From assembly GCF_029892965.1 (NCBI RefSeq), contig NZ_JARXWN010000008.1, positions 124,001 to 188,000 on the forward strand: a DNA stretch of 64,000 nucleotides, read 5' to 3'. Positions 8,906 through 64,000 of the stretch are shown here, piece by piece. Within the stretch, counting starts at the first letter, position 1. Each line of letters starts with the position of its first letter. The stretch is from Dysgonomonas sp. PF1-14. GTDB lineage: Bacteria > Bacteroidota > Bacteroidia > Bacteroidales > Dysgonomonadaceae. The notes below the pieces were generated by a model. The model was given only the letters and a program-made list of their open reading frames with translations. It did not search any database and was not told where the DNA came from. A program made the position numbers and the translations under genes.

Positions 8906-8909
8906 TATT

Positions 8910-29957: not shown

Positions 29958-29966
29958 AGGGGGTTA

Positions 29967-30491
29967 TTAAAACAGGTCTAATTGCAAAGCAATCTCCCGC
30001 CTGTAAATCCGTATCCTACGTCCATAATAGTTTTCAAACGCCTTGATCAGTTGTGTCGTATCTACATGGTATTCATCACCGTCATCCTGCACGATATGCG
30101 ATACGATTTTATCGATACTCCAGCCTTTTTCTATAAAATAAGACCAGATCCAGTATCGTCGGGTCGGTTTTTTGAGCTTCATTTCGTCCCATTCCAAATC
30201 TGTGGCCGGACGTTTATAGATTATTTTGTACCAATGGGTTTCAGCCATTCTCGCCCTGTCCTGCCAAGGCATCAGGTCTATAATAACGGCTATCTCTTGT
30301 TTCTTGATGCATTTATGGTGAGTTTTACGGATTCCATACATAACAACGGGTCTTTCCCAATCAGGATTTAACTCCCTGTAATGTAGGGTTTCGACTGTTT
30401 TCTTATAAATCCGGACCAAGTCCACTTTATCAAAAAACTCCCGGAGCCATTCGTCGGGAGTTTCGTACAAACTATTGGGAAATGTCGCCAT
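29967..30491 (-). CDS. hypothetical protein between radical SAM and PP-loop ATPase genes
   Basis: A 174-residue protein from ATG 30491 (MATFPNSLYETPDEWLREFF), chosen because the longer frame to 30560 overlaps the radical SAM gene. It is rich in Trp, Tyr and Arg, with segments WERPVVMYGIRKTHHKCIKKQE and RYWIWSYFIEKGWSIDKIV. No known family is recognised. It begins 14 bp after the radical SAM stop and ends 9 bp before the PP-loop ATPase start, so all three are probably translated together and work in one process. Confidence 0.65.
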   Translation of the reverse strand: MATFPNSLYETPDEWLREFFDKVDLVRIYKKTVETLHYRELNPDWERPVVMYGIRKTHHKCIKKQEIAVIIDLMPWQDRARMAETHWYKIIYKRPATDLEWDEMKLKKPTRRYWIWSYFIEKGWSIDKIVSHIVQDDGDEYHVDTTQLIKAFENYYGRRIRIYRREIALQLDLF

Positions 30492-30505
30492 AACTGTTTT
30501 TCTAT

Positions 30506-31192
30506 CTAATATTTTTTCACATGGTATTTCACATAACTCCAAAAACAACAGCAATGACATAATTCATTTCCGGTTTGCCTCTGATAACTTAAATCGCCAT
30601 TGCTGAGTATCATCCCTTCAGCATTCAGATATACGTTTCCTTCTAAATGATTTCCTTCGTTAAGGGTTAAGGGATGTATGTGATTTTGATTTCCGGAACA
30701 ACTTCGACCTTCCTTAAAGAGAAAGATATAGTCTGCCTGCCCTCTTAATCCGAAAAAGGGGTAGCAACTCAATTTTTCAATGATTTCAGCATGAAACCTG
30801 TTATCATGGAAGCAGTCATCACTCATCTCCAGCATACGGAAATTTCCGGACATATTTTTCTTCTGCTGGTAATCATAGAGCTTTGAGCATATGGCGATAA
30901 ACTCATCGGATAAAGAACTTTTGGAACCATTGGTTACAATATAAAATTCATAGACTTCAATTTCAAAGAGTTCCACCTGCTTCAGTATATACCTGATTGC
31001 CTTAATATTCAGGGAAGGCTCGCCACCGGTTATATTGAAATGTCCGATACATCGGATATGTTTCAGTACATTCCTGATGTTGCTATGGCGGATATCGAGG
31101 TTCTGTGCATCTCCCCGCATACAATGACTACACAGCATATTGCATTTACGGGTTATTTCAATGGACAATGTCCTGAGTATTAGTTTTTCCAT
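30506..31192 (-). CDS. radical SAM protein
   Basis: A 228-residue protein with the 4Fe-4S motif CNMLCSHC (CxxxCxxC) near residues 18-25, preceded by LSIEITRK, and the SAM-binding motif NITGGEPSL near residue 55. The barrel is short, and the C-terminus has a cysteine cluster (NELCHCCCFWSYVKY), which could hold an auxiliary cluster. It is the upstream partner of the 174-aa unknown protein and the PAPS-reductase-like ATPase. The substrate is unknown; the combination with an adenylating PP-loop enzyme suggests modification of a nucleic acid base or peptide. Confidence 0.8.
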   Translation of the reverse strand: MEKLILRTLSIEITRKCNMLCSHCMRGDAQNLDIRHSNIRNVLKHIRCIGHFNITGGEPSLNIKAIRYILKQVELFEIEVYEFYIVTNGSKSSLSDEFIAICSKLYDYQQKKNMSGNFRMLEMSDDCFHDNRFHAEIIEKLSCYPFFGLRGQADYIFLFKEGRSCSGNQNHIHPLTLNEGNHLEGNVYLNAEGMILSNGDLSYQRQTGNELCHCCCFWSYVKYHVKKY

Positions 31193-31204
31193 GAAATTTT
31201 AATA

Positions 31205-31633
31205 TTAAGATCCCATTTCGATAATCCATGTGACTATAAAGTCCTTATTGCTTTCCGGCAAACAGAGTTTCTTCAATCCATCGATACCATCTACACAACA
31301 CAACAAACCTTCCTTATCTTTTGATTGCCCATTCAGTCCTATCAGGCATTCGCCGTACTGGTTATTCTCATCCCGGTAAGTAATCTCACATCTGGCGCTT
31401 GCAGGTTTTTTTCCGGTAGCCTCTTTGTAGCTTCCGGACAAATAATCTACAGCCTGTATCACTTCTTCACAATCACTAAGCACAGTAGAACTATGGCAGT
31501 CTGTACAATAGCCATAATAGAAACTTTCATCTGAAAAATGGTCCAGAGCTTTATCCATATTGTTCTTATTCGGGTTAACCCATGCTTCACAGGTTACATC
31601 CTCTCCCCCACACTGGGTACATATTACTTTCAT
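31205..31633 (-). CDS. hypothetical zinc-ribbon protein
   Basis: A 142-residue protein beginning MKVICTQCGGEDVTCEAWVNPN, with a second cysteine pair in YCTDCHSSTVL. Together these form a plausible four-cysteine zinc ribbon. The rest is mixed alpha/beta with no known motif. It overlaps the upstream 78-aa gene by 4 bp and ends 12 bp before the radical SAM gene. Similar small zinc-ribbon proteins are common in the accessory gene runs of Bacteroidetes conjugative elements. The function is unknown. Confidence 0.65.
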   Translation of the reverse strand: MKVICTQCGGEDVTCEAWVNPNKNNMDKALDHFSDESFYYGYCTDCHSSTVLSDCEEVIQAVDYLSGSYKEATGKKPASARCEITYRDENNQYGECLIGLNGQSKDKEGLLCCVDGIDGLKKLCLPESNKDFIVTWIIEMGS

Positions 31634-48421: not shown

Positions 48422-49684
48422 TTAAAGTGGTTCATTATCCCCCCGGAACATTTCAAGCACGTCATCAAATGGAATATTGAAATAATTATACTTTTCTGCT
48501 GTTTCGAGTAGAGCCGGATATTTTTGTGAAATATAATAGGAGTGAGAGCGATTGTTCCACTCAGGTGCTGCCGGTTTAAAATAAGAAGTACGTATTTGTT
48601 GCTCAACTATTGCAATATTCACAAATATTTGGGATAATTCCTCTAAAGAATATTTTCCTTTTTGTTCAGGATTTCCAAAGAAATAAGAAATATAATCAGT
48701 AAGAGCATATATATACATCGTGTTATCACTATTTGTTTCTTCCTCAATTGTTTTCAACAGCCCATTTCTTATAGAAAGTTTTTCATTGCAGTCTTTTTTG
48801 AAAAAAATGTCATCGAATTGAGAATAATCGGTGGTACCATCAAACATTTTATAGTCCTTGAAAATATTTCTTAGTACTGCTTTATTTAATTTCCCATTTT
48901 TATCATAGCCAAAGTAAGTTACCAATAACGTTAAAAATTCAATATTATTATTAATCAACCATGTCAGGCTTGCATTGCTATTATTGAATATAAATTTATT
49001 GAGGTGAATCAAAAATAATCGATTATTATTTTGTCGTATTTCCAGATCTAACTCGTCCTTCCAATGGATTCCTTTATGTATAACTCCCTTTTCGTATTCA
49101 TCTTCAAAATAGATTGGTTCTTTTTCTAATTCCAATAGATCAGGAAATTGCTTTTTATAATTGATCATTTCAGGGAGAAAGTAGGCGTAAGTGATTAGAC
49201 CATGCTTGTAACTAACATAAAATGTCGAGAAAAAACTTGATTGATATGGTTCTATTGTATGCATGAGATCTACGGCAGTTCCTGTTTCAGCAATTAAAGA
49301 CTTATTGCATAATCGAAAATATGAATAATCTGTATTTGTCTCTACAGGATATACTCCAAATATATTTTTTATTATTTGTTTCATATTTATCTCAGTAGAT
49401 CTTTTATAGCCACTATTTAGGAGTAAAGTATCTTCTATATTAAATAATGTTTCTAAAGCCTGAATACCTCCATAGTCTGAATCTGTTCCATTATCTAATT
49501 GGATCAATAATATATTTTTTACATTTAAAGAATCTCTATACATAATATTTGAATCTTGATTTAGTTTTGATGTTTTTTTATTACAAGCAAATAATAAATT
49601 AATAACTGTAAGTAGTACTAAAATAAATAAATACCTCTTGTTATTTTTTATTAGCTTTATCTCTCCATATTTTTTTTGCTGCAT
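48422..49684 (-). CDS. lipoprotein, candidate immunity protein of the PAAR/GH19/M23 effector
   Basis: A 420-residue protein from ATG 49684 (an ATA/ATG-rich extension to 49702 exists). After a long charged n-region, the signal segment KRYLFILVLLTVINLLFAC ends in a lipobox (LFAC). The mature protein shares ASLTWLINNN, EFL and FGYDK with the lipoprotein at 46051. The gene overlaps the last 44 bases of the effector gene, so expression is coupled. An outer- or inner-membrane lipoprotein next to a peptidoglycan-degrading effector is the usual form of immunity. It lacks the N-terminal extra domain of its paralog. Confidence 0.7.
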   Translation of the reverse strand: MQQKKYGEIKLIKNNKRYLFILVLLTVINLLFACNKKTSKLNQDSNIMYRDSLNVKNILLIQLDNGTDSDYGGIQALETLFNIEDTLLLNSGYKRSTEINMKQIIKNIFGVYPVETNTDYSYFRLCNKSLIAETGTAVDLMHTIEPYQSSFFSTFYVSYKHGLITYAYFLPEMINYKKQFPDLLELEKEPIYFEDEYEKGVIHKGIHWKDELDLEIRQNNNRLFLIHLNKFIFNNSNASLTWLINNNIEFLTLLVTYFGYDKNGKLNKAVLRNIFKDYKMFDGTTDYSQFDDIFFKKDCNEKLSIRNGLLKTIEEETNSDNTMYIYALTDYISYFFGNPEQKGKYSLEELSQIFVNIAIVEQQIRTSYFKPAAPEWNNRSHSYYISQKYPALLETAEKYNYFNIPFDDVLEMFRGDNEPL

Positions 49685-52600
49685 CTTGTTCTTTATTATC
49701 ATATGATTGTAATTTTATAAATAATGCTGGATTTAAGTAATATTTCCTATTTTTATCTTTGGTTATATTTTTTATCTCGAAATGAAGATGAGGTGCCTTT
49801 GTCTTGTCTGCGTTTCCTTCAACTCCTGCATAGCCGATTACTGTACCTGCTTTAACTATACCATCTTTATTTTCTATTTCTTTCTGGGACAACTTTTTAA
49901 ATAGGTGCATATAACTAACATATATTTTGTCTGTTTCTTTCAAAATAAATTCTGCTTTTTTTCCATTAAAGTTTCCAGTTGATATCCCTGCTGTATATTC
50001 ATTCTCTTCTGTAAACTGAAGTTTATATTTGACTGTATTCATTTGAGCAATGAGTTCTTTTGTATTTATTATTTCAAGTGTAATTGTTGAATTTCCAAAA
50101 GCAATAAATTTACAATCCAGACATGCATATACTTTAGTTGTTTCCGGGATAGCGAAAAGATCAATTCCTGTGTGGAATCTTCTTGTACCATTAGTTCGAA
50201 CTCTAACATTACCAAAAGAAGCACTTCTGGGACTAACAGCTCCTGAAAAATTATATTTATTTATTTGTGGATTAATTACAGGATCATGCCATATACCATT
50301 ACTTATATACTCTTCTTTCCCCCATTGACACTCATCTACCTTAAACAATTTTGAGGTAATTTCATCAAATGCTTTCTTTTTACCTTCCCAGTCAACACTT
50401 GAACCTATTATCTTACTTACTTGATCTACATCCTTAGAACCATTACACTTAGTGTTTGCACTCTTCACTATCCATGCGCCCATAGAAGCTAATATAATTA
50501 ACCTCATATTCTCCTCATTTGTTAGCGCCTTTACTCCACTATCTGTTGTAATATCTATTGTAGCGTCTTCTTTATCTTTTATTTTTTTCCATGTTTTATC
50601 ATATAATTCCCGACCTGTCATCTGAATCAATCCGCGTCCCCTAAATCTCCAGCCATCACCACTCTGTGTGTTTCCTAATCCATGATTCTTAGAGCGATTT
50701 TCATCTGCATATATAAAGTTCGCTAATTTTTCCTGATTACATTTCTGTATTCCTGCATCTAAATGTTTATTTAAATCTTTACGTCCATAATCTTCAGCTA
50801 TGTGTTTATTTTCAGGTTTGAGCAAAGATGAAAATAATGGGTCTCTATATTTTGTACCTTCTTGATAATAACCTCCTTCCTTTGTTGCTTTATTCCCTTC
50901 TTTCCAGTTTTTTACTCCTTCAATATAGCGGCCAACCAACAACTCACGGGTACTGTAATTTATTGATTCCGGCTCTTTGAGTTTTAATGATGTTCCGACC
51001 TCAATCCGCGCTTGCGCAAAAAAATGGGCTTTTTGCCAACAGGTAGCCATACCAAAATCCTTCATATATTTTGTGTATGTATCACCAACTTTATTTAATA
51101 TATCATCAGTTGCATTAGGAAATATATCTTTCAAGCAAACTTCATTCTCTTTATTTTTACTTTTATTCCATTCACTTTTAGAACCTCTTATTGCAGCTGT
51201 ACACCTCGGACAATGACCTGATTTATGCTCTTTCTCTACATCTATTCCCTCCCCAATAATCACAGGTTTTGTTTCAGGGAAAGAGTAATTCATCTTGGCA
51301 TCCTTTGCAAGTTTTAACTGTAAAAAATAGTTTAACCTTCTGTTCTGAATTTCCAAAACATAGTTATTCCAATCGGATTTTGTTTTTTTCGGATTTTCTT
51401 GTTTCCATACTTCATAATATTGATTGGAGGAATTTTCATCTTCTATATCCAGCAATGTATCGATCAGATATATATCGTTATGCTTATCTGAGTTATAATT
51501 TTTCGGATACTGGCATACGCATTCTATCTTTCCATTCTTAACCTGTTTACTATCATATAATACCAAATAAAAGCATCTTGGCTGATGACCAGGAATCCCT
51601 TTATGCAGTGCAGGGCTTAATAAACTGTAATTTGTATCTGTTAGATGAATGTATTTTCCTTCTCCGTTAAATGTGTTGATCAATGCCACATTCATCCTTA
51701 TTTTCTGCTTATGATCAACATAGCTATCCGGAGTCCTGTCCTTTTTGTTTTTAGCCGTAGCCTTGGTATTTTCTATAATGTGCATCCGATATCTGTTATC
51801 GTATTCGGTACTTTGCATAGCGGCTTTTTTACTCAACAATAGCTGCACTACTATTTGCATAGGGTCTCCGTATTTAAGGATTTTTTTTAGAAGCACCCCC
51901 TCCCCGTCTGCAAAATAAGCTTTTATTTTTGAGTTTTCTACAATTGTGACATGCTTATGCAGAAATTCACTTTTTATGATATTTTCATCAACAATATATG
52001 TATCTGTTTTGCTTCCATCCGGCAAATCTCTTTTCCAGTCTTTTTTCCAGTTTTTACATATTGTATCTATTTTACTTACAGTAAAGTATAACTTTATTTC
52101 TTTTGGGGTATTTGTTTTGACTAATTCGGAAAGCGCATTCCATGTCGAAGTCAGAACAGGTATTTTAGCAACACCTTCATTATTAAACTGGGTAGTTCCG
52201 GCAAAATCTACACTATCAATTATAGGATCGATCGCATAATTCTTCTCCCAATATAGGGTTACTATCCCTTCTTTATTTTCCCAACCTTTGGCTTCAATAT
52301 CTACATATACATCCTGATACCAGCCTATTTCTTTATATCTGTTACCTGCATCATCGGAGAAACACCACCTAACTATTTCCGATTCATCTATTGTAATCTC
52401 TTTCTTAGTAATCTCAATTGGACTTTTCGATAAGGCGATTGAAATTTCATATTTTCCGGTCTTATTAAATATGAGATTTAGCTTATTTGTAAATACTTTT
52501 CCCGTCCAGGCCGGATCAGATAGAAATTCATACCACTCATTGGCGTCCTGCAATCCCGGATTCGAACTATTTTTATCTTCAAATTCTAGTTTAACAATTT

Positions 52601-54329
52601 GCTTACTGTTAATTAACATCCTTCTATCTGCATTCTTCGGTGTAATATCTTTTATAAAGATTATAAATCCTCCATCTGATGTCAGATTATAAGGCATTTC
52701 CGTTTCAATATTCAACTCAATTTTGTTTGCAGGATATTTTGTAATATTTTCATATTGCCTATCAAATGAAAAATTGGTTATAGCATTGTTTTTTACAGTT
52801 ATATTATGTGCATTATTCGGCATTTTGAAAGCCGAAGGAAGTAGCCATGTAAAAAAAGTCTGGACAGGATTTTCATCCAAAACAGCCCCAATCTGGTAAT
52901 TTCCCAATACTGAAAAACTTTCCTGAATAGATACCCCTTTTTTCGGAGATTTAGTAATAAGCCCAAAAGGATTTTTTATCATCCAGGCAATATTATCTTT
53001 ATCAGCATTTATATCTTCTTTAAGTCTAAGAATAAATGTTATCTTTTCATTAGGTCTGACAACGCGTATATCATTAGGCTGAGTATTTACACTGGTAATT
53101 TCATTATTCTGTGCATCTATTTGAAATGTTTTAGAAATACCTTCTGCTCCAAGAGATATAAATATATTATATTTTGCTACATTATCAGGTGTGAAAATTA
53201 TTGTATCTTTAGTATGTGAATACCCTTTCGATAAGATACTGCCTCTACCATCTTTTATTGTTACAATTAATGTTTCTATTTCTTCCTCTTCAAATGGAAA
53301 TAACGACTCAATAGTAAATGTATATGTTTTTTTTCTTACTAAAGGAATAAGAGTATCAGGCTCATATACTTGACCATTACTCCTACTCAAGTGTGTAATT
53401 TCATTCTTATCTGTTACCTCAAATTTAAGAATACAACTTGTATCCTCCTTACTTCTAGCATCTAAGAAAGCCCCAAAACCTTCCAAACTGAATTTTCCTT
53501 CTTTTGGAAATAACAACTTCAATTCTTCTCCTTGTTGTTTATATATAAAAGAGGTTTTATCATTGATATCAAGATTTTCTGTTTTTTCCCATAATTGCCA
53601 ACTAATATTTCTTTTATCTCCGCGATAATTGGCCTTAAATATAATTTCCTTATTCATTCGGACTTTCATTAAATCGGAATTCCCTGATTTTTGTCCGTTA
53701 TATTCGATATTGTCAACTATTGCTTTCTTTATATCGTCAGCGGGTTCTAGAGGCTCAAATAAACAGTTTATAGCTAAAGCTTCTAATTCGTCCAATTCTT
53801 CTATGCTATCAGAATCAACCGTGATTTCCTGTCCATGTGTTACAATTGTTATTTTTCCTTGAAATTTAGGACATTGTATATATGCATTTTCTGTTAATAC
53901 AAGCAGAGTATTGACTTCCGGATGTTCTGTACTAGGTGTAAGTTCCCAATCTTGCGGGGAATACATACAAGGCTTTCCTGTTGCCGGATTTTTTGTACAT
54001 TGACCAAAAAATGGCGGAGGAAATACATTATCTTTAATAGTAGCTATAAGTTTCTGCCTTGCAGAAGCATCATTTATATATGCTTTAGATTGGCTTATTA
54101 CCTCTATCTTTAACATAGCACTTCCAAACTCACATTTACAGGTAGCTCCTTTACAGACTAAGTATGCACCTGATTCTGGTGTAGATTTTCCAGACATATT
54201 ACTAGTTTCTATAGAAGTAGCCTCTTCAACACTATTCTCTTTATTCTGATTTTGTGGTTGAATATTAACGTTACTGTCTATCTGCCTAGCTCTAGGCTGC
54301 TGATTTAAAGTAATTGTATTATCATTCAT
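49641..54329 (-). CDS. T6SS effector: PAAR-like (DUF4280) – Ig-like repeats – GH19 lysozyme – M23 peptidase
   Basis: A 1562-residue protein. Residues 52-190 are a DUF4280 PAAR-like domain (GAYLVCKGATCKCEFG ... GQCTKNPATGKPC ... CPKFQGKITIVTHGQEI), which caps the VgrG spike. Residues about 200-900 are beta-rich Ig-like repeats. A GH19 hydrolase-type domain follows (about 1075-1350): HFFAQARIEVGTSL with E1110 in the HESGG position, NYSTRELLVGRY, RFRGRGLIQMTGRELY near 1227. Residues about 1370-1545 are an M23 (LytM) endopeptidase with HTGID (H1386, D1390) and HLHFEI (H1514, H1516), the zinc ligands. It would cleave both glycan and peptide bonds of peptidoglycan in the target periplasm. It overlaps the upstream adaptor gene by 8 bp and the downstream immunity gene. 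Confidence 0.85.
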   Translation of the reverse strand: MNDNTITLNQQPRARQIDSNVNIQPQNQNKENSVEEATSIETSNMSGKSTPESGAYLVCKGATCKCEFGSAMLKIEVISQSKAYINDASARQKLIATIKDNVFPPPFFGQCTKNPATGKPCMYSPQDWELTPSTEHPEVNTLLVLTENAYIQCPKFQGKITIVTHGQEITVDSDSIEELDELEALAINCLFEPLEPADDIKKAIVDNIEYNGQKSGNSDLMKVRMNKEIIFKANYRGDKRNISWQLWEKTENLDINDKTSFIYKQQGEELKLLFPKEGKFSLEGFGAFLDARSKEDTSCILKFEVTDKNEITHLSRSNGQVYEPDTLIPLVRKKTYTFTIESLFPFEEEEIETLIVTIKDGRGSILSKGYSHTKDTIIFTPDNVAKYNIFISLGAEGISKTFQIDAQNNEITSVNTQPNDIRVVRPNEKITFILRLKEDINADKDNIAWMIKNPFGLITKSPKKGVSIQESFSVLGNYQIGAVLDENPVQTFFTWLLPSAFKMPNNAHNITVKNNAITNFSFDRQYENITKYPANKIELNIETEMPYNLTSDGGFIIFIKDITPKNADRRMLINSKQIVKLEFEDKNSSNPGLQDANEWYEFLSDPAWTGKVFTNKLNLIFNKTGKYEISIALSKSPIEITKKEITIDESEIVRWCFSDDAGNRYKEIGWYQDVYVDIEAKGWENKEGIVTLYWEKNYAIDPIIDSVDFAGTTQFNNEGVAKIPVLTSTWNALSELVKTNTPKEIKLYFTVSKIDTICKNWKKDWKRDLPDGSKTDTYIVDENIIKSEFLHKHVTIVENSKIKAYFADGEGVLLKKILKYGDPMQIVVQLLLSKKAAMQSTEYDNRYRMHIIENTKATAKNKKDRTPDSYVDHKQKIRMNVALINTFNGEGKYIHLTDTNYSLLSPALHKGIPGHQPRCFYLVLYDSKQVKNGKIECVCQYPKNYNSDKHNDIYLIDTLLDIEDENSSNQYYEVWKQENPKKTKSDWNNYVLEIQNRRLNYFLQLKLAKDAKMNYSFPETKPVIIGEGIDVEKEHKSGHCPRCTAAIRGSKSEWNKSKNKENEVCLKDIFPNATDDILNKVGDTYTKYMKDFGMATCWQKAHFFAQARIEVGTSLKLKEPESINYSTRELLVGRYIEGVKNWKEGNKATKEGGYYQEGTKYRDPLFSSLLKPENKHIAEDYGRKDLNKHLDAGIQKCNQEKLANFIYADENRSKNHGLGNTQSGDGWRFRGRGLIQMTGRELYDKTWKKIKDKEDATIDITTDSGVKALTNEENMRLIILASMGAWIVKSANTKCNGSKDVDQVSKIIGSSVDWEGKKKAFDEITSKLFKVDECQWGKEEYISNGIWHDPVINPQINKYNFSGAVSPRSASFGNVRVRTNGTRRFHTGIDLFAIPETTKVYACLDCKFIAFGNSTITLEIINTKELIAQMNTVKYKLQFTEENEYTAGISTGNFNGKKAEFILKETDKIYVSYMHLFKKLSQKEIENKDGIVKAGTVIGYAGVEGNADKTKAPHLHFEIKNITKDKNRKYYLNPALFIKLQSYDNKEQDAAKKIWRDKANKK

Positions 54330-55179: not shown

Positions 55180-57021
55180 TTAAAACAACCTTACTTTTTT
55201 TGCACTCTGCACATCCACTTCCTTGTTTGAAGCCAGCTCCAAATTTTCCTGTGTACTATCGATACGTGCCTTATCAGCAATCACATCATACTTTTTGGCT
55301 GTATGCATCGAATCCGATATAGCTTGTGTATAAATATTATTCGCAGAAGTTTGGCAATCTTCTCCGGCAATATATCCCATATTTCGATCAGCATGCATAT
55401 TTATATTCTCTCCAGCATATCCAGAGATATTCTCACGTGCATACATATTTATATTTTTAGCATTCAGCGTCATCGTTTCTAGAGCTGTAATCTCTATATT
55501 ATTGCCTTTGGTATCTATATGGACAAAATTGCCGTTCTTGTCTTTGATAGTGATACCCAATGTGTCTTCCGCATCGTCGAACTCGATAGTATGCCCTTGC
55601 CGGGTAATAATACTCTTGATATGATTGTCTTCTTTGCCTCCTTCGGCATTCTTTCCATGAAACATACTCCCCATTACATATGGCTGATTCGGATCGCCGA
55701 ACTCAAAGCCGACCATCACCTGATCGCCTTTCTCCGGAACGAAAACCAGTCCTCTGTTCTTCTGTACTACATCGCTTGATCCTGCATTCGGAGTCATTAC
55801 TCTGAGCCAGACATCACTCACCCTGTCCTGTGCAAACGGGAAATCTACCCTGATACGTCCCTGTCCCTGCGGGTCTTCATTACTGATAACGGTAGCTCTT
55901 ATCGAATCGGCAACAGGTAGACATACTTCGGGTGCGGGGACTGTTTTCAAAGCGGCGGGCACTGCTTCAAACTCGCATTTATATCTGTGGTTCTGGTCGA
56001 TGGTGTGTTTTACTTTTACAATACGGTAAGTACCCAGATCACTGGCACCTCCCATATTGGCAGGCATATTGATTGTCAGTTGACGTCCTATTCTCGGAGC
56101 GCAGGTCTTGGCGGTGCCTCGCACATACACTGTCTCTGAGGCTGTAACGGACTTCTCCCTTGCAACCAGTTCATTTAATGACCCGATATCTCCGATAGGA
56201 AGGGAAGACGGGGTACGGACTGGACGCTTCTCGGTCAGTTCTTTACTGCTATCGGCTGCCGTATTGACATATTCGTTGGCATTGTCAATCGTCGCAGGGG
56301 CATCCTGTGTAATGGTATCATCCTGTTCCGCTAAATATTGGTAACGGGTAAAGTTATTGGCGAGCAGGCGTGTGCCGAACTGGAAGCTGGTTATTTCTTT
56401 ATCATAAGTAACTTCTACCGGACTCCAGTCTTTGTATTCGCCGAATACCAAGTCCATACCTGTATATAGCAATGTCTCTCCGGATATGGCTGAAAGCCTG
56501 CGCAGGAACTCCCAGTCGCTTTCCTTATATTGCATCAGGAAATTTACCTGACCGGTATAATGAGGTTTATTGACACAGGGAAGACGGTCTTTCTTATTGA
56601 TAATATTATCGGTAACCTGATCGAAGACTTGTCCCAAATTCATATTGCAGAAGATGTCCAGACGCTTGCCTCTTTCCAAAAGGATAGTGGGGCTAAGGCC
56701 TTCGAGTATCAGGTAGCCGTGTTTGCCTTCCTGTCCTTCGTGGTATACATCGCGGATGACTCCCCTGAACTCATAGGCATTGCCGCTGTCATCGCCCTGC
56801 ATCAGATCGATATCCAGAAACTGTCCGATCAGCTTCATCTGTTCCAGCGGGTTCTTCATGAAATCCTGTTTCAGGGTATCATAATCCATGACTACTCTAA
56901 ATGAATGGTGTTCCGAAAAGGACTGTTCCAAACTTAATGATACAAAGTCGATTTCATCACCTTCAATATAGACCCGTGCATTGGTGATATGTCTTTCGTT
57001 TAATAAATCCGAAGTTGCCAT
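55180..57021 (-). CDS. vgrG: T6SS spike protein VgrG (TssI)
   Basis: A 613-residue VgrG. The N-terminal gp27-like base (HITNARVYIEGDEIDFVSLSLEQSFSEHHSFRVVMDYD) and the junction GQFLDIDL are followed by a gp5-OB fold (RATVISNEDPQGQGRIRVDFPF, DVWLRVMTPNAG, VFVPEKGDQVMVGFEFGDPNQPYVMGSMFHG). A beta-helix needle of repeated short strands completes the protein (TMTLNAKNINMYARENISGYAGENINMHADRN). There is no C-terminal effector extension; it ends KKVRLF. It is followed by adaptor, PAAR-effector and immunity genes, and preceded by the TnpB-like gene with a 141-bp gap. Confidence 0.93.
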   Translation of the reverse strand: MATSDLLNERHITNARVYIEGDEIDFVSLSLEQSFSEHHSFRVVMDYDTLKQDFMKNPLEQMKLIGQFLDIDLMQGDDSGNAYEFRGVIRDVYHEGQEGKHGYLILEGLSPTILLERGKRLDIFCNMNLGQVFDQVTDNIINKKDRLPCVNKPHYTGQVNFLMQYKESDWEFLRRLSAISGETLLYTGMDLVFGEYKDWSPVEVTYDKEITSFQFGTRLLANNFTRYQYLAEQDDTITQDAPATIDNANEYVNTAADSSKELTEKRPVRTPSSLPIGDIGSLNELVAREKSVTASETVYVRGTAKTCAPRIGRQLTINMPANMGGASDLGTYRIVKVKHTIDQNHRYKCEFEAVPAALKTVPAPEVCLPVADSIRATVISNEDPQGQGRIRVDFPFAQDRVSDVWLRVMTPNAGSSDVVQKNRGLVFVPEKGDQVMVGFEFGDPNQPYVMGSMFHGKNAEGGKEDNHIKSIITRQGHTIEFDDAEDTLGITIKDKNGNFVHIDTKGNNIEITALETMTLNAKNINMYARENISGYAGENINMHADRNMGYIAGEDCQTSANNIYTQAISDSMHTAKKYDVIADKARIDSTQENLELASNKEVDVQSAKKVRLF

Positions 57022-57162
57022 AGCGTATAATTTTTATAATTGTTATATTCTTCTCTATCTCACTTAATTAGATGGCCAGTTGCTGTATATATCTGTTTAA
57101 AGATACTTCATGAGTGCATTCATACCTCACGCTCAGGGTAAACAGCTACCCCATCATTTATA
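57022..57162 (-). other. intergenic region downstream of the TnpB-like gene with small hairpin
   Basis: 141 bp without a gene between the TnpB-like gene and vgrG. It contains GGGTA-AACAGC-TACCC (57136-57151) and, at the TnpB-like stop, ATTGAA/TTCAAT (57165-57170 and 57175-57180). TnpB guide RNAs normally arise from the 3' end of the gene and the following sequence, so this is the place to look for one. It may equally be the leader of vgrG or an attenuator. Confidence 0.35.
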
Positions 57163-58284
57163 TTATTGAATTATTTCAATGTCAATGCCATAAAAAGCTG
57201 CTTTGTACCGAACCTTTTCTTCCAGACCATAATGGGACCAATTTCCTAAAACGGCAAGTTCTTCTTCATTTATATTTGAGTCCCTTATTTCCTGCTTTAT
57301 CAATATAAGTTTATGCGATCGGTTTCTTTTTGCATACTCCACCAGAAGCCGGGCATAAGTATGTAGCTTTGTATTGACATAGTTCGCTTCCTTACCCTTT
57401 AAACGGTCTATACTCTGAACTTTTCGTTTATAGCCTCTGCCTCCTTTATTGTATTTTGCTGCTTGCAACATTTTTTTTAAGGTTTCCTGAATACGCATCT
57501 TCTGATAGAGGAATTCTTCTTTTGTTCCGATATAATAGCCTTTCTTTTCTATCGAGGATATAATTTTCACTGCTTGCTCTTTATTACCTCCATTTATAGC
57601 AATAATCGGATTATCGATGCCTAAAAGAGCATAGGTAACATTACCGGGATCAAGCTGTATTTTCTTTGCCGGAATTTCCATCTTCAAAAGGAGCATGGTT
57701 TTATTTTCTCCCAACTGGATAGAGCTTCCGCAAATCTTATATTCTCCATCAAGGCAACGCTCCAACATGATGCGGTTATTGGATCTATCGGTTCCCAGAT
57801 AGGTCTTGAAAGGAATACCGAAAAGAGTAAATTCAAAATTCTTTGCTTCCGGGTTCCACCTGAGTTTGCGGATACATCTGGCAGAAAAAGGTACCGGTAG
57901 TGTTTTCTTATAGTTTCTCAAACTCCTGTCCCCTGTATAATATGCCTCCTTCTCTTTATTATAATATCCGCTCACATACTGGTTAACCGATCCTCTTATA
58001 TCACCCGGCAAATCTGTAAAAGACTGGGACATCTTACCGGTTGAGTGTAAATTAGAGCAGTTGAATATACCCAGCTCATCTTTTGCATGGTCGCCCAGCT
58101 TCCTTTTGACACCTTCTTCCAGATAGATCATCCTTATCAGGTTATCTTGGATAAAACGGTGCGAACTGATCAGGTTAGCCAGTTGAAATGTATTCCGCTG
58201 CCATGAAAAAAGAGTATCCCAATATCCTTTCTTTTCCTCAGGGGTACCTACCGGATTTATTTGTATTTTACGGGTAATGATCAC
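57163..58284 (-). CDS. TnpB-like RuvC-fold protein, C-terminally short, inside the T6SS operon
   Basis: A 373-residue protein with TnpB/Cas12-like character. The N-terminus is a helical and WED-like region (FEFTLFGIPFKTYLGT, MLLLKMEIPA). RuvC-I is YALLGIDNPIIAI with D224. A basic bridge-helix-like stretch follows (KYNKGGRGYKRKVQSIDRLKGKEANYVNTKLHTYARLLVEYAKR). The RuvC-II strand is KLILIKQEI, where the catalytic Glu position reads K330 (or E332 if shifted). The protein ends at GIDIEIIQ, where TnpB continues into the zinc finger and RuvC-III Asp, so both are missing. A nuclease-dead, perhaps RNA-guided, function is possible. It lies between clpV (with the 59-aa gene) and vgrG in the same direction; no TnpA or insertion sequence ends are seen. 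Confidence 0.7.
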   Translation of the reverse strand: MIITRKIQINPVGTPEEKKGYWDTLFSWQRNTFQLANLISSHRFIQDNLIRMIYLEEGVKRKLGDHAKDELGIFNCSNLHSTGKMSQSFTDLPGDIRGSVNQYVSGYYNKEKEAYYTGDRSLRNYKKTLPVPFSARCIRKLRWNPEAKNFEFTLFGIPFKTYLGTDRSNNRIMLERCLDGEYKICGSSIQLGENKTMLLLKMEIPAKKIQLDPGNVTYALLGIDNPIIAINGGNKEQAVKIISSIEKKGYYIGTKEEFLYQKMRIQETLKKMLQAAKYNKGGRGYKRKVQSIDRLKGKEANYVNTKLHTYARLLVEYAKRNRSHKLILIKQEIRDSNINEEELAVLGNWSHYGLEEKVRYKAAFYGIDIEIIQ

Positions 58285-58305
58285 TTTAAGTAATAGTATT
58301 ATTTT

Positions 58306-58485
58306 TTATTCCTTTTTTGATAGTTTATTATCTATTCCTATATAATACTCATTGGTCTTAGTCCACAGCGTAACATAATCAATCGGATATACCTGCCCTG
58401 TTTTATGGGAACGGACTTTTATTTCACGATCTCCGTATAATTTCTGTTGCTGTTGCAATTGTTCTATGAGTTCGCTGATTCTCAT
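58306..58485 (-). CDS. small protein translationally coupled to clpV (59 aa)
   Basis: A 59-residue frame from ATG 58485 to TAA 58306. Its start overlaps the clpV stop (ATGA), and AAAGGAGGG inside the clpV end is a strong ribosome-binding site. The product MRISELIEQLQQQQKLYGD-REIKVRS...VTLWTKTNEYYIGID begins with an amphipathic helix and continues with short strands. It resembles small ISELIxxLxxxxxxYGD-type proteins seen on phages and plasmids. It ends 21 bp before the TnpB-like gene. The coupling indicates a real gene; the role is unknown. Confidence 0.7.
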   Translation of the reverse strand: MRISELIEQLQQQQKLYGDREIKVRSHKTGQVYPIDYVTLWTKTNEYYIGIDNKLSKKE

Positions 58486-60977
58486 TGTTTACCCTCCTTT
58501 ATAATATCCCAAGTTAATTCATCCTTTTCATCTTTACCTACTATAAGTTTCTGTCCATGATTGAGTTTGTTGCCTACAATAAGGCGCGAGATAGGACGGC
58601 GCAGATAAGTACGTATTGTTCCTGCCACCTGACGTGCCCCGTATTTAGGGGTAAAACCTTTTTCAGCAAGCATTTTACGTGTATCATCGTCTATCACCAA
58701 TTCTATTCCTTGTTTATTCAATGCTTCTGTCAGCCCTTTAAGTTGTATATTGAATATTTTTAGCAACATAGTCTCATTAATAGGTGAAAATGGAACAATC
58801 TCGGACAAACGTGCCAGAAATTCGGGACGGAAATACTGCCCCATCACTTCCATCAGCTGTGTAGTAGTAGGTGTTTTGCCTTCATTCAACTGCTTGGTAA
58901 GCCATTCGCTACCCACGTTGGAGGTAAACAATACAATGGCATTGGAGAAATCACCTTCCTTGCCTAAGCGATCGTGGAGCTTTCCTTCATCCATTATTTG
59001 CAGGAAGATATCATAAACAGAAGAGTGGGCTTTTTCTATCTCATCGAATAACACTACTGCATACGGTTGTTGTCGTATTTTATTTACCAACAGACCACCC
59101 TCTTCATATCCTACATATCCCGGAGGTGCTCCGTAAAGTAAGGCGGCAGAATGTTCTTCCTTGAACTCCGACATATCGAAGCGTATCATAGCTTTTTCAT
59201 CATTGAACAGCACTTCGGCTAACGATTTTGCCAGTTCTGTTTTTCCTGTACCTGTAGGCCCCAATAGGAAGAATGAACCGATAGGCTGCCCTACCTTGTT
59301 CAGTCCGCTGCGCGATTCGAGAATAGCATCTACAAGTGATTTTAAAGCACCGTCCTGCCCAACTACGCGCCGACGCAAGAGGTCTTCCATATTCAGCAGG
59401 CGTTCTTTTTCCTGCGCCTGTACTTTTCCGATAGGGATGCCTGTTTTACTCGAAATAATAGCAGCGACCTCGTGTACTTCTATAGTCGTTATTTTCTCTT
59501 TTACAAACTCGCGTAGTGTATCCAGCGCCTTGTCGATATAGGCGAATAGCTTTGCATCGTCTTCTATTTCTTTTACATCCGTTTCGTCGGTGATTATACC
59601 CAATAGTACCGGACTCAGCCTGTTCTGCATCGAGAAAAAGAGGAAACGCAAGTCTTCTAACTTTTCTTCGCGGGTTTTCTCAAAAGCCCCTTCAATAGTT
59701 GCCAGTTCAGTCGTAAAATAGTGTATGTCCTTCTCGGCTGTTTCGTTTACCATCTTTGTAGCAGACATTGTCCTGTCCATCAAATCGATGGCCGAATCGG
59801 GCAGCCGCCTGTCTTTATCGTATCGTTTAGCAAGGCGTACACATTCTTCAACAGCATCTTTAGATATGTCTAAGTTGTGGAAGTCTTTATAGCGAGGTAG
59901 TACAGAGTGCATCATAAGTATTGCCGAAGCAATATCCGGCTCGTTGATCTGTAATACTTCAAACCTACGGTTAAAAGCATGATCGGGCTCTATCAATTTT
60001 CGGTATTCATCGATTGTTGTTGCCCCGATAACGGTCAGGTCACCTTTCGATAGTTCGGGTTTCAGTATATTGGCTGCACCCGAATTTCCCTGTTTGGGAT
60101 CGAGCAGGGTATGTATCTCATCTATAAAAAGAATAGCATTGTCGATATTGCGTATCTCTTTGATAATGTTTTTCAGACGGTCTTCTATCTCGCCTTTATA
60201 GGTTGCTCCGGCAATCAGGGCACCTGTATCGAGTTCGTATATATTCGCCCCTTCGAGGTATGAAGGCACATTCTTATTTACAATGTCGTATGCCAATCCA
60301 TCTACCAATGCTGTTTTTCCTACACCGGAATCCCCAATTATCATTACATTGGGTTTACTATGGCGACCGAGTATCTCCATCATCATGCGGGTTTCCTTAT
60401 CGCGGCTGACGATGTTATGTATTTTAAAGTCCAAAGCAAGAGCCGTTTTGTCAACACAGTATTTCAGTAGGTTTACCAGTGGCATTGCTCCGTCTTCTTC
60501 CGATGTTACAAAAGCATTACCCGCCATACCGATAGACGAACGGGTTTCTTTACCGCTTACATACAGGTCGAATATTTCATTTTCACGTAATGGAAAGGAT
60601 TTCAGTTGATCAGTAGAGAATCCAACATTCGGTTTTGCCAATGCAGCCAGTACGCAAATCGGATTTATTTCGAGTAACCCGAGTTTCAGCCTTACATTAT
60701 CGGCTTCTTCAAATATCAACGGTATCTTATCATCGGGTTGTATATCGGCAACAACACCTGCTTTGGGAAATTCGTCGATGCGCATTTCTGCCCATTCTTC
60801 GAAGTATTCGATGTCCTTATCCATGCTCTGAATAAAGCCTTGCAGTCCGATCTCCTTGTGCATAAGCGCTTTGAGAAGGTGTGCAGCCGAATACTGCGCG
60901 TTATAATACTCGCGGGCTATGGATTGGGATATCCTTACCGCTGTTTTTACCGATTCGTTTAGGTTAATGAAGTCCAT
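58482..60977 (-). CDS. clpV: T6SS ATPase ClpV (TssH)
   Basis: An 831-residue ClpB/ClpV-type AAA+ protein from ATG 60977; the frame extends to 61103, but that part lies inside tssF. The N-domain (residues 1-150) starts MDFINLNESVKTAVRISQSIAREYYNAQYSAAHLLKALM. AAA1 has GDSGVGKTAL and LFIDEIHTLL; AAA2 has GPTGTGKTEL and VVLFDEIEKAH. A shortened middle domain is present, as in ClpV. It disassembles the contracted TssB/TssC sheath for recycling. It follows tssF by 19 bp and is coupled to the 59-aa gene. Confidence 0.92.
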   Translation of the reverse strand: MDFINLNESVKTAVRISQSIAREYYNAQYSAAHLLKALMHKEIGLQGFIQSMDKDIEYFEEWAEMRIDEFPKAGVVADIQPDDKIPLIFEEADNVRLKLGLLEINPICVLAALAKPNVGFSTDQLKSFPLRENEIFDLYVSGKETRSSIGMAGNAFVTSEEDGAMPLVNLLKYCVDKTALALDFKIHNIVSRDKETRMMMEILGRHSKPNVMIIGDSGVGKTALVDGLAYDIVNKNVPSYLEGANIYELDTGALIAGATYKGEIEDRLKNIIKEIRNIDNAILFIDEIHTLLDPKQGNSGAANILKPELSKGDLTVIGATTIDEYRKLIEPDHAFNRRFEVLQINEPDIASAILMMHSVLPRYKDFHNLDISKDAVEECVRLAKRYDKDRRLPDSAIDLMDRTMSATKMVNETAEKDIHYFTTELATIEGAFEKTREEKLEDLRFLFFSMQNRLSPVLLGIITDETDVKEIEDDAKLFAYIDKALDTLREFVKEKITTIEVHEVAAIISSKTGIPIGKVQAQEKERLLNMEDLLRRRVVGQDGALKSLVDAILESRSGLNKVGQPIGSFFLLGPTGTGKTELAKSLAEVLFNDEKAMIRFDMSEFKEEHSAALLYGAPPGYVGYEEGGLLVNKIRQQPYAVVLFDEIEKAHSSVYDIFLQIMDEGKLHDRLGKEGDFSNAIVLFTSNVGSEWLTKQLNEGKTPTTTQLMEVMGQYFRPEFLARLSEIVPFSPINETMLLKIFNIQLKGLTEALNKQGIELVIDDDTRKMLAEKGFTPKYGARQVAGTIRTYLRRPISRLIVGNKLNHGQKLIVGKDEKDELTWDIIKEGKQ

Positions 60978-60996: not shown

Positions 60997-62772
60997 TTAA
61001 GGTGTTGTGACAATAATTTCGTAGTTATAATTATTCGGAGACCGTTTGATAAGCCTTGTATGGAGGTCTCTAACAACCTCTTTTTTATTAAGATAATCTG
61101 CATATCTTTCTTTTGGTCTTATCCGGATTTCCATTACATTAATCAGCCCTTCTTTGAATTTGGGACTGATCTTAACTGCTTTTTTTACATTTATATCCTC
61201 TGCATATTTACCTATTTCCAACTGACAGTAACTGACAATATCATGCTTTGTCAGTATTCTTCCCTTTGATGTCAGGAAGAAGCGGTTAATCGCTTTCAGA
61301 CTTTCTATATCATAAAAAGTGTGGCCTCCGGTAACCGGACTCAGGAAAACAGCCTTATTTTTATTTAATGCAGGAATCGTAGTTGCCATCAGAGCTGTTC
61401 CTTTTTCCAATCCGTTGACCTGTCCGGCTAAGGTAGTCCAGTATGATGTAACAACAGTTGTTGTTGTGTCATATGGATGCACTGTCAATCTTGCAACATC
61501 CGCATACTCATTCATCCTGTTGAGATCGAAGCGCTGATTTTCTTTATCTTGTATATCAGACAGAAGATTCAAAACATCCAGTATTTTTTCTTCATTAATT
61601 TTTGGAAAGGCTGTTTTTTCACTTTGAATAACATCAATAAAGCGTTCCAAGTGGTCGTATATGCGTATATCATCTATCCTTTTCTTATGAATGGGAGTAA
61701 CAGTATAAGAACCCTCTTTCTTTTTAGCTGTATCGTAATGATGAAAAATGGTATCTGTATCGGTAACGGATTCGATTTCAAGGAACTCCTCCCCGATTTC
61801 AGAGGGTAATGAGATTATATTGGAGAGATTTTGCCGGGGTTGCCTGTCTTCATTGTATCTCCTGTTAAGAGCCGGAAAAGCATTTAACACTATGATCATT
61901 TTTTCCAGATCAGATTCTTCAAAGTGAGGAGGAAAAGTAATGGATAACCAGTTTTTATGAGGCAAAGACATGATAATATCTTCCGGTATAACAGCCTGTA
62001 ATCCGGCAGGAAAAGTATCTATTGCAATATCATCCGGATAAAGAATATCAGTCAGTGTTTGAAAATGAGACTCATAAAAATGAAGGATGTCTTTTTCTGC
62101 ATTACTATTTGCAGTTTCTGCTATAACCGGAAACCCTTTTCTTGCATTTAACTGGTGCTCTGTTGAAGACCAACGAATCGTTGATAACAAATCATAATAA
62201 TTGTGGTTGTCGTTCAGATGAGGAAAATCAATATAAAAAAACAGGTTTTCCAATTGTTTTATTTCAGTATCTATTTCCAGTTGTAACCAAATGGTATTAT
62301 ATACTGCTTTTTTCTCTGTTGTGGTTGTTAGTGATTTATTCCCCTGCTCATCGACAGTCCATAACGATTGGTTGTAGAACATATATCTGATACATGCGTC
62401 ATGGAGAACAGTATCTGTCAGGGGGCTGAATACAGGTGGCTTAAAAGCGGTATTTTTCAAGTTATCGGACAACTCTTTCAGACTGAACTCAGCGTTCTTG
62501 CTCAACCGGTACACTGGTGTGTCGGGCCTGACCTGCAAGATACCATGTGCAGGACGCACATAACCAAACATGGAAGGAGAAAGTGTCTTAACTAGCTTTT
62601 CGAGAATAGTGACATCTATATCGTTAAGTTTATTATCTAACAGATACAGTTCATTGCACACCTCTTCTACCATCAGCTGAAAAAGCGGATTGAAATTACC
62701 TGATTTCTTTGTCCCCCACACCATGTTGGCATAGTGGATTATCTTGTTGCGTATGGCTTCTTTGCTCTTCAT
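60997..62772 (-). CDS. tssF: T6SS baseplate subunit TssF (Bacteroidetes type)
   Basis: A 591-residue protein. The N-terminus (KSKEAIRNKIIHYANMVWGTKKSGNFNPLFQLMVEEVCNELYLLDNKLNDIDVTILEKLVKTLSP and GYVRPAHGILQVRP) and the wedge-like architecture match TssF baseplate proteins of subtype-iii T6SS. The later GYVRPAH and SLKAINRFFLTSKGRILTKHDIVSYCQLEIG segments resemble phage baseplate gpJ/TssF C-terminal domains. It is located between TssR and ClpV, and the downstream clpV start lies 19 bp beyond its stop. Confidence 0.85.
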   Translation of the reverse strand: MKSKEAIRNKIIHYANMVWGTKKSGNFNPLFQLMVEEVCNELYLLDNKLNDIDVTILEKLVKTLSPSMFGYVRPAHGILQVRPDTPVYRLSKNAEFSLKELSDNLKNTAFKPPVFSPLTDTVLHDACIRYMFYNQSLWTVDEQGNKSLTTTTEKKAVYNTIWLQLEIDTEIKQLENLFFYIDFPHLNDNHNYYDLLSTIRWSSTEHQLNARKGFPVIAETANSNAEKDILHFYESHFQTLTDILYPDDIAIDTFPAGLQAVIPEDIIMSLPHKNWLSITFPPHFEESDLEKMIIVLNAFPALNRRYNEDRQPRQNLSNIISLPSEIGEEFLEIESVTDTDTIFHHYDTAKKKEGSYTVTPIHKKRIDDIRIYDHLERFIDVIQSEKTAFPKINEEKILDVLNLLSDIQDKENQRFDLNRMNEYADVARLTVHPYDTTTTVVTSYWTTLAGQVNGLEKGTALMATTIPALNKNKAVFLSPVTGGHTFYDIESLKAINRFFLTSKGRILTKHDIVSYCQLEIGKYAEDINVKKAVKISPKFKEGLINVMEIRIRPKERYADYLNKKEVVRDLHTRLIKRSPNNYNYEIIVTTP

Positions 62773-62807: not shown

Positions 62808-64000
62808 TTACGGCAACAGTTTTCTGTCCACCCAGTAATAAGTCTGTCCGTTCGATTCAAACTTTTCGGCTTTGTTAAGTTCTTCCTTCTTGCTTTTGAA
62901 GTAGATAATGAGGTCATCCAGCATCTTATCTGTAACCAATTTGTAATCGGTCAGATCTTTTATTTTTATGTCGTTCAGCATATCGGTGGCAGATGGACTC
63001 CCTGTTATTCGTCTTTGCGCTTCGGCAAGCGACATAGAATTCAGTATATTTCCTTTTTGCTTACATAGTTTACAGTATTTGATCGTATTCATATACAGGT
63101 CTCTCAGATAAGTTCTGACTGCATAAGTGTCTGCATATGCTCCCGGAGGTTTTGGTATGGTATAGAGTGTTTCCTTTGGAATAGTATCATTTGCGTAATC
63201 GGGAATTTCTTCTTTTGATTTAGCCATCAGATCAAACAGATCATCTTCACAGTTACATGGTTTTTTGTCTTTCTGTTGTGCGTCTCTTGCTTGATAGATA
63301 TATTCCACTTCCATTTTAGATAAAGCATCTACGAAGTCTTTCAGTTCATCCAATTCACTTTCGGATGCCATTAGGCGATAGCCTACATGCCTGTTTACCG
63401 AATCGGAAAGTATTACAGGCTCAGAGGCCATACTCCATGCCGGAAACTGATTCTTAAAGCCAGCCACCAGTTTTTTGGATGGCGTCCTTGTTGTATCCAG
63501 TTCGAATTTCCGGGTAAATTGTTCATCAAATCGTGTACGATTATTACCCACTGTATTAAAAGCCCGCGACATATAACGGATAACACTGGTATTGTCTTCT
63601 TTGATCTGCCCGACAATAGTATCGACATTATTGGTAAGGACATCCAGAGATAAATAATCACCTTTTTGAGGAAAAAGGATAGCTCCCTGAGTGATGCTGT
63701 TATCCGGAAAATCGAGACGATACCCGTTTTTCGTTTCACCTATTTCAGTATAATAACTGGTATGCTTGATCTGTTCGGGTGATACCAGAACGTCTCCTTT
63801 GGTTTTTTTCATAGTTTCGGCATAGGAGTCTATCATCGTTTCTATGTCTAACACAAAGTTGTTTGATGCGTTGTCATCTGAGGCATATACCTGAAATCCG
63901 AGTAAGCGGCAATTGTTTGTTGCGAGCCTGTTAGTCAGGGTAGAGTCTACATCTTCATTGGCATAACCTGTTTCTCCTACTACAACAATCAGGTTCGATT
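62808..64000 (-). CDS. tssR: T6SS protein TssR (partial, continues past the window)
   Basis: The frame is open from 62808 to the last base, so at least 396 residues of the C-terminal part are present; the GTG at 63854 is not the real start. The upstream part reads LIVVVGETGYANEDVDSTLTNRLA and LLGFQVYASDDNASNNFV, and the protein ends with FESNGQTYYWVDRKLLP. This hydrophobic-aromatic ending and the von Willebrand-like VVVGE strand fit TssR, a periplasmic component specific to Bacteroidetes T6SS. A CxC pair (KPCNCED) and KYCKLCKQKG could bind metal. It is followed by tssF after 35 bp. Confidence 0.75.
   Translation of the reverse strand, partial: SNLIVVVGETGYANEDVDSTLTNRLATNNCRLLGFQVYASDDNASNNFVLDIETMIDSYAETMKKTKGDVLVSPEQIKHTSYYTEIGETKNGYRLDFPDNSITQGAILFPQKGDYLSLDVLTNNVDTIVGQIKEDNTSVIRYMSRAFNTVGNNRTRFDEQFTRKFELDTTRTPSKKLVAGFKNQFPAWSMASEPVILSDSVNRHVGYRLMASESELDELKDFVDALSKMEVEYIYQARDAQQKDKKPCNCEDDLFDLMAKSKEEIPDYANDTIPKETLYTIPKPPGAYADTYAVRTYLRDLYMNTIKYCKLCKQKGNILNSMSLAEAQRRITGSPSATDMLNDIKIKDLTDYKLVTDKMLDDLIIYFKSKKEELNKAEKFESNGQTYYWVDRKLLP

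Follow-up and report, generated by a model that had tools for sequence, protein, structure and literature searches.

A T6SS operon of Dysgonomonas sp. PF1-14 encodes a nuclease-dead Cas12f (dCas12f) together with a guide-type RNA. The protein, found in the window (the whole stretch of 64,000 nucleotides that was analysed; Table 1), belongs to the Cas12f family, has lost the RuvC-I and RuvC-II acids as well as its C-terminal end, and is accompanied by a covarying RNA scaffold; such genes occur in two T6SS loci that differ from each other, the stretches scanned around them lack a sigma gene, and the tree places them with sigma-free homologues from phages. That the protein is a dCas12f accompanied by a guide-type RNA is much better secured than the reading of its function, which, by analogy, is probably that of a sigma-free, single-guide DNA binder acting as a repressor in trans (we put the probability of this at about one half).

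Table 1. Features of the dCas12f locus in the window.
Feature	Position	Strand	Basis
nuclease-dead Cas12f (dCas12f), 373 aa, GTG start	57163..58284	-	phmmer, PADLOC, AF2 model/Foldseek, RuvC columns
guide-RNA scaffold, 74 nt	57079..57152	-	conserved with C12 copy; model R1 homologues; covariation on 16 units
probable guide, AACTGGCCATCTAATTAAG... (or from 57078 with TGGCC)	57059..57081	-	analogy with L113 repeat end
vgrG, directly downstream of the guide RNA	55180..57021	-	NCBIfam vgr_GE 81 bits, below cut-off 122
59-aa ORF after clpV, present also in loci without dCas12f	58306..58485	-	homologue comparison
clpV (TssH)	58482..60977	-	NCBIfam VI_ClpV1 578 bits, below cut-off 885
T6SS gene, presumably TssF-like by resemblance	60997..62772	-	45.6% identity to gene at same place in C12
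end of a T6SS gene that we take to be TssR-like	62808..63854	-	10 loci in 9/101 family genomes

The dCas12f gene is an intact ORF that lies between clpV and vgrG and runs in their direction, as the original prediction had it; all three are on the minus strand. ClpV and VgrG were both matched by NCBIfam models, each below the curated cut-off; the clpV ORF reaches 61103, its start (MDFINLN) was picked by comparison, and the gene is 87% identical to the clpV of a second T6SS in the same genome, on contig C12. NCBIfam gave no match for the TssF-like gene, nor for the TssR-like one, whose ORF has 843 aa and runs beyond the ORF called in the window (L004 809-3340). The small ORF that separates clpV from the dCas12f gene was rejected as a dCas12f accessory, since a homologue stands after clpV without a dCas12f in genome G013; another follows clpV at the locus of the second dCas12f copy, and yet others lie outside T6SS loci in G005, G006, G009 and G030 (12-kb stretches). 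By inspection, the neighbouring ORFs are T6SS genes and include no transposase, and no inverted repeat of at least 12 bases was found in 56900-58600; the ends of IS200/IS605 elements, however, are hairpins and not inverted repeats. Both T6SS loci adjoin genes that, by resemblance, may be conjugation genes.

Downstream of vgrG, a 1562-aa protein (window 49641-54329, minus strand) combines an N-terminal DUF4280 with a C-terminal Peptidase_M23 domain; it resembles a T6SS effector that acts on the cell wall. A tandem row of five to six lipoprotein-like ORFs of 143-189 aa, near-repeats of one another, stands beside T6SS genes at the end of contig C8 (L004 9685-12701, minus strand). Three genes are consecutive in the window at 7241-11716 (plus strand): one of the HATPase_c_3 (Hsp90-like) type, one of 333 aa that has no Pfam match, and a weak radical-SAM gene. 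They are a possible defence cassette, judging from weak PADLOC matches of the ATPase; a PAPS-reductase-like protein at 29223-31633 (minus strand), with a radical-SAM gene nearby, gave weak PADLOC matches to SspD and BrxP.

By sequence, profile and fold, the family nearest to the window protein is dCas12f (Cas12f/Cas12u3), not TnpB, with which the original prediction had labelled it. The best sequence match is the dCas12f of PDB entry 9n9c (phmmer to 9n9c_A, 5.5e-70); the AF2 model shows the Cas12/TnpB fold, the outcome on which the prediction had staked itself, and also has its best fold match in 9n9c (Foldseek, 2.2e-27); the PADLOC profiles Cas12f and Cas12u3 match at 9.5e-48 and 1.6e-46, respectively, the latter over positions 1-340 of its 398. 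The guided_TnpB profile reached 44 bits against a cut-off of 100, and TnpB, Cas12k and other Cas12 rows scored below Cas12f in the fold comparison, which leaves room for a more distant kinship. TnpB and TldR were rejected on these grounds as the nearest family; the descent from TnpB that marks a TldR was not found.

The absence of a zinc finger and of RuvC-III had been noted correctly: in Cas12f, the zinc ribbon and RuvC-III lie in the C-terminal part, and the protein stops before both. Judged by chain lengths, aligned active Cas12f chains extend about 60 to 130 residues past its end, and 12 of 12 aligned relatives end at most one residue from its last column. The residue that had been taken for the RuvC-I aspartate, D224, is a different one: in the HMMER alignment, the Asp of the VDLGI motif of active Al3Cas12f falls on L220, and its Asn on D224. 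The acid of RuvC-II is lost as proposed, but not to the lysine, since the Glu of the MER motif aligns to I329 and K330 occupies the next column; the window protein has no acid at either. The second copy carries Ile at both the RuvC-I and the RuvC-II columns and E330 one column after the RuvC-II position, so that a one-column shift of the alignment would leave it an acid. Elsewhere, these two columns hold Ser and Val in Pedobacter (one of the five has Thr in place of Ser), Phe and Val in phage L113, and Ser and Met in 9n9c; phage L116 retains Asp at the RuvC-I column. The protein combines full-length homology to dCas12f and its fold with lost RuvC acids (L220, I329, no RuvC-III) and an associated guide RNA, identified by its scaffold through model and covariation, and the intact RuvC triad of an active CRISPR-Cas12f is absent. 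In expecting an RNA-guided protein with a dead nuclease, domesticated by a T6SS locus, the prediction was right in kind.

The 57022-57250 region had been singled out as the place to look for a small RNA, and a conserved scaffold does lie there; it stands downstream of both T6SS dCas12f genes, directly so in the window, at a mean column identity of 89%. In its predicted fold, two hairpins are joined by a putative third stem, and a pseudoknot links loop 1 to the 3' end; a compensatory pair is seen between the two T6SS copies. A model built from these two RNAs alone (R1) gave 19 matches (E up to 0.1) in five of six other dCas12f loci, none of them further than about 1.8 kb downstream of the gene: seven in L029, nine in L030, and one each in L031, L032 and L034. 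R1 found nothing in L033, although two copies of hairpin 1 appear there with a looser pattern. It further matched on both sides of dCas12f in the phage contigs L113 (2.3e-8, 3e-8), L114 and L115, and weakly in L116 (0.032). Across the 101 genomes of the family, the three T6SS copies matched strongly, and G032, G054 and G056 weakly (E 0.007-0.035).

Covariation computed on the two T6SS scaffolds alone is uninformative, with 256 of 500 shuffles scoring as high. The set that carries the test consists of 16 units of the single-guide type (window, C12 and 14 from Pedobacter), which we chose for holding scaffold and guide in one piece; the structure covers the two hairpins and the pseudoknot. It is paired in 94.4% of 288 cells and beats every slid version of itself. 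Eight of its 18 pairs changed on both sides, against a shuffle mean of 2.7 and with none of 500 shuffles as high, a significance that is overstated, since related units are counted repeatedly and the structure was drawn from the same sequences. In the pseudoknot, pair 8-82 changes from U-A to C-G, and the outermost pair, 7-83, is unpaired in 13 of the 16 units. The folding energy of a single scaffold is no stronger than that of shuffles. At C12, a hairpin follows immediately after the guide (scaffold and hairpin together have a z of -4.45), whereas the window guide runs on into the vgrG leader. Rfam gave a single sub-threshold match (18.5 bits against 40), located elsewhere. Three exact matches of the scaffold 3'-end pattern in viral contigs fall within long ORFs and were judged to be chance. 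No CRISPR array was found at the locus, the window and L003 (the C12 locus) holding one scaffold copy each.

A paper on RNA-guided transcription by dCas12f and sigmaE has reportedly been published. That a dCas12f occurs with a sigma factor is already known from titles and chains of PDB entries (9n9c, 9n9m, 9n9o, 9n9q), in which the titles name a dCas12f-gRNA complex. The window system is like this one in full-length sequence and fold, in its dead RuvC, its truncated C-terminus and its guide RNA; it differs in having no sigma gene nearby, in its T6SS operon, in its one fused guide RNA and in its separate place in the tree. Each of the five Pedobacter loci has an ECF-type sigma gene directly upstream of its dCas12f; the one sigma tested contains Pfam Sigma70_r4 and matches chain C of 9n9q ('RpoE') at 6.8e-38. 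An HMM built from the five Pedobacter sigmas detects two ECF genes elsewhere in the Dysgonomonas genome (1.2e-8, 1.1e-6), and no ORF in the window, L003-L005 or L039-L041 (C8:110,000-198,718 and C12:44,200-122,200; 88.7 kb and 78 kb); the adjacent rpoE-type sigma gene of dCas12f-sigmaE is missing from these scanned stretches of C8 and C12. The HMM had no match in L028, L034, L035 and L036 either, or in the 11-kb phage stretches around the phage dCas12f genes.

In the 13-row tree, 9n9c and the Pedobacter genes stand together (100/99) and the T6SS pair joins phage L113-L115 with moderate support (81/94). A reduced tree, without L116 (the longest branch) and the near-duplicates L030 and L115, gives 98/96 for the T6SS-phage split, leaves the T6SS pair with L113 alone unsupported (69/63), and rejects a topology holding the T6SS rows with the sigma-linked ones (p-AU 0.021, in a test chosen after the first tree had been seen, on few rows and with a midpoint root). 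These results bear on the alternative that the T6SS dCas12f is an RNA-guided activator like its sigma-E-linked relatives, with a host ECF sigma supplied in trans. Among solved structures the closest relative is a dCas12f that shares entry 9n9q with an RpoE chain, the Pedobacter relatives keep their sigma adjacent and the genome itself encodes ECF sigmas, all of which would suit an activator; we nevertheless consider it rather unlikely, given the lack of a sigma gene in the stretches scanned around both T6SS copies, the position of the pair outside the sigma-linked clade, and a best own-genome match to a Pedobacter sigma that is weak (E 0.0025).

The phage-contig proteins, of about 350-380 aa and without RuvC-III (L113 4600-6220, L114 4685-6524, L115 4567-6206, L116 6062-6588), stand beside CRISPR arrays, with a sigma gene absent from the 11 kb scanned, and are candidates for phage-borne CRISPR interference without cutting. 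The L113 dCas12f shows 43-45% identity; five repeats with a 66-base spacing lie just upstream of it, arrays flank the L114 gene on either side, and three repeats occur in L034, which comes from a genome of the same order. The neighbours of L113 are an anti-repressor (PF03374, 3.8e-32), a DNA methylase and a reverse transcriptase (8540-9526, plus strand; RVT_1 3.4e-16, PADLOC RT 5.4e-41), those of L114 an SSB and a RecE-like gene, and that of L116 a phage tail protein. Downstream of the Pedobacter sigma-dCas12f genes, scaffolds are arranged in tandem, seven in L029 (11097-12589) and nine in L030 (5300-7085); many are followed by related guides, variants of TGGGGTCTGCTGTT, and in L029 CRISPR-like repeats stand side by side with single-guide units. 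CRISPR-Cas12f and Cas12u3 systems (types V-F and V-U) share with the window system the PADLOC matches and scaffold relatives beside CRISPR arrays; the window system differs from them in its lost RuvC residues and in a single scaffold copy, with no array seen at the locus. A sigma-free branch with arrays in phages and a single guide in T6SS loci would form a series that leads from the CRISPR array to a regulator with one fixed guide.

The second dCas12f of the genome (C12:73398-74477) lies in another T6SS and shows 62-64% identity; it is again preceded by clpV and an ORF of 60 aa, a 290-aa gene intervening, and has its own scaffold. The two dCas12f genes are separated by a pS of 0.82, which is saturated, and a dN of 0.29 (0.10 for clpV), values that place both copies under purifying selection; a second, diverged copy in another T6SS is more than chance. 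The 19,001 bases of L003 that hold this second locus are identical to part of scaffold 2 (L028) of Dysgonomonas sp. 521 (G011), from the same genus, which points to recent transfer.

The VipB family PF05943 had no match in the own genome, so that T6SS loci were counted via the TssR-like protein. Three of its ten loci carry dCas12f (two in the present genome, G000, and one in G011; two of the three are identical), and none of the other seven does, examined as stretches of 9.9-16.5 kb with clpV outside the stretch in G007 and G021; conservation at this place, which the prediction had named as a check, is not what is seen, and the gene is not fixed there across the 101 family genomes. A search of these genomes for dCas12f matched four, namely G000, G011, a fragment in G034, and G072 with two distant TnpB-like matches (28% and 23%); an order-wide search of 393 genomes at 1e-20 matched three (G000, the G034 fragment, and G163 at 42%, L034). 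G013, in which clpV, a 60-aa ORF and vgrG follow one another with 32 bases between the last two, is a site without dCas12f, and in G034 a piece of dCas12f lies beside a 60-aa ORF with an internal stop. Homologues found only as random insertion-sequence remnants would have spoken against a domesticated gene; the one in G034 is decayed, but intact ones exist in settings other than insertion sequences. A decaying relic without function is very improbable for the T6SS copies: the patchy occurrence, the G034 fragment with its broken small ORF and a guide whose target was not found are what a relic would leave, but two copies that have stayed intact while diverging strongly, with synonymous sites saturated and dN at 0.29, and a scaffold this well conserved, with its compensatory pair, are not.

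The CRISPR repeat of L113 ends GGATATACAGC before the spacers, and by analogy the window guide would start AACTGGCCATCTAATTAAG and the C12 guide AACTGGTTCATCATTGCAA. With starts of this type, the two guides share AACTGG; with a start after CAGCAAC, based on the ending CAAC that Cas12f scaffolds presumably have, they share TGG. TGG or GGG recurs at about the same offset in many, not all, of the Pedobacter units. The window guide as a 16-mer with up to three mismatches matched 17 sites in its own genome, including itself, against 37 for a reversed-pattern control; the best other site has three mismatches. The C12 guide as an 18-mer matched three sites there, including itself, against two for its control. 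A repeated intergenic site (L010, L018) has three mismatches. Apart from the guides themselves, the two T6SS-region stretches contained for neither guide a site with fewer than six mismatches over 20 bases, among sites mismatched at no more than two of the first 12 bases. No target-like site lay in 400 kb of C1 and C2, and in 25 genomes of the genus the window 18-mer, with up to two mismatches, matched three sites including itself against two for the control. The searches are blind to a short seed-only match elsewhere in the genome. As no guide target was found, we infer both the target and the direction of control; spike or effector genes, which the prediction had suggested, would be possible targets. 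A Pedobacter guide pattern, TGGGGTYTGCTGTT, gave ten matches with at most one mismatch in two genomes, against none for the control; three of these are the guide units themselves, and the other seven, each with one mismatch, fall for the most part within ORFs that show no shared theme.

The guides also bear on a further alternative, an element-borne defence without cutting that would silence competing mobile elements or phages and not a host gene. The nearest sigma-free relatives do lie on phage contigs beside CRISPR arrays, and the conjugation-gene look-alikes at both T6SS loci would fit an element-borne system; the guides themselves make this improbable. In viral contigs, the window guide (17- and 18-mer) had no exact match (nor had its control), and the C12 guide matched 11 stretches against 10 for its control, none of which extends beyond about the pattern; spacers of the L113 and L114 arrays had no match in the phage collection; and a single fixed guide would be a poor defence.

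A dead Cas12f with a conserved scaffold and no sigma gene nearby makes guide-directed binding without cutting the most economical function. Under the preferred reading, a repressor acting in trans, a dCas12f of the sigma-free lineage would be expressed together with the T6SS in whose operon it is encoded, and would be supplied with one fused guide RNA from directly downstream; the complex would bind a DNA site matching the guide without cutting it and would most likely block transcription there, as a natural CRISPRi, TldR-like in effect. We infer expression, the start and length of the guide, DNA binding, repression over activation, and a target in trans. Repression of the bound promoter would follow by analogy with TldRs, TnpB-like, nuclease-dead repressors of the promoter they bind (PMC13418256); what the two have in common is an RNA-guided protein whose nuclease is dead, which has a guide RNA next to it and has been domesticated beside non-transposon genes. 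The gut Bacteroidales T6SS loci GA1-GA3 (PMC4714493) have ClpV, VgrG and further T6SS genes in common with the window locus, and two of their architectures lie on mobile elements; the words transposase, TnpB and OrfB are absent from the main text of that paper. In a literature search by titles and starts of abstracts, a scope outside which preprints and most subscription papers lie, no paper treated Cas12f in a T6SS or nuclease-dead phage Cas12f. Nor did the search bring up a dCas12f of the sigma-free, single-guide type in a T6SS operon, which may be new.

Somewhat tentatively, the sigma-free lineage may have begun as non-cutting CRISPR interference encoded by phages, been taken up by mobile elements bearing a T6SS, and been reduced to a single fused guide that would retune a host gene or a competitor's gene whenever the weapon is expressed. 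If true, this would be a third natural use of nuclease-dead Cas12f. The window system would show that dCas12f is not only a partner of sigma-E, since a sigma-free branch exists both on phage contigs, where it comes with CRISPR arrays, and in T6SS operons, where it has a single fused guide; and it raises the question of how a dead Cas12f without a sigma factor acts at its target. It would also tie RNA-guided gene control to an interbacterial weapon: a dead CRISPR-type protein that has a guide-like RNA of its own beside it suggests a naturally occurring gene switch, programmed by RNA and linked to the T6SS.
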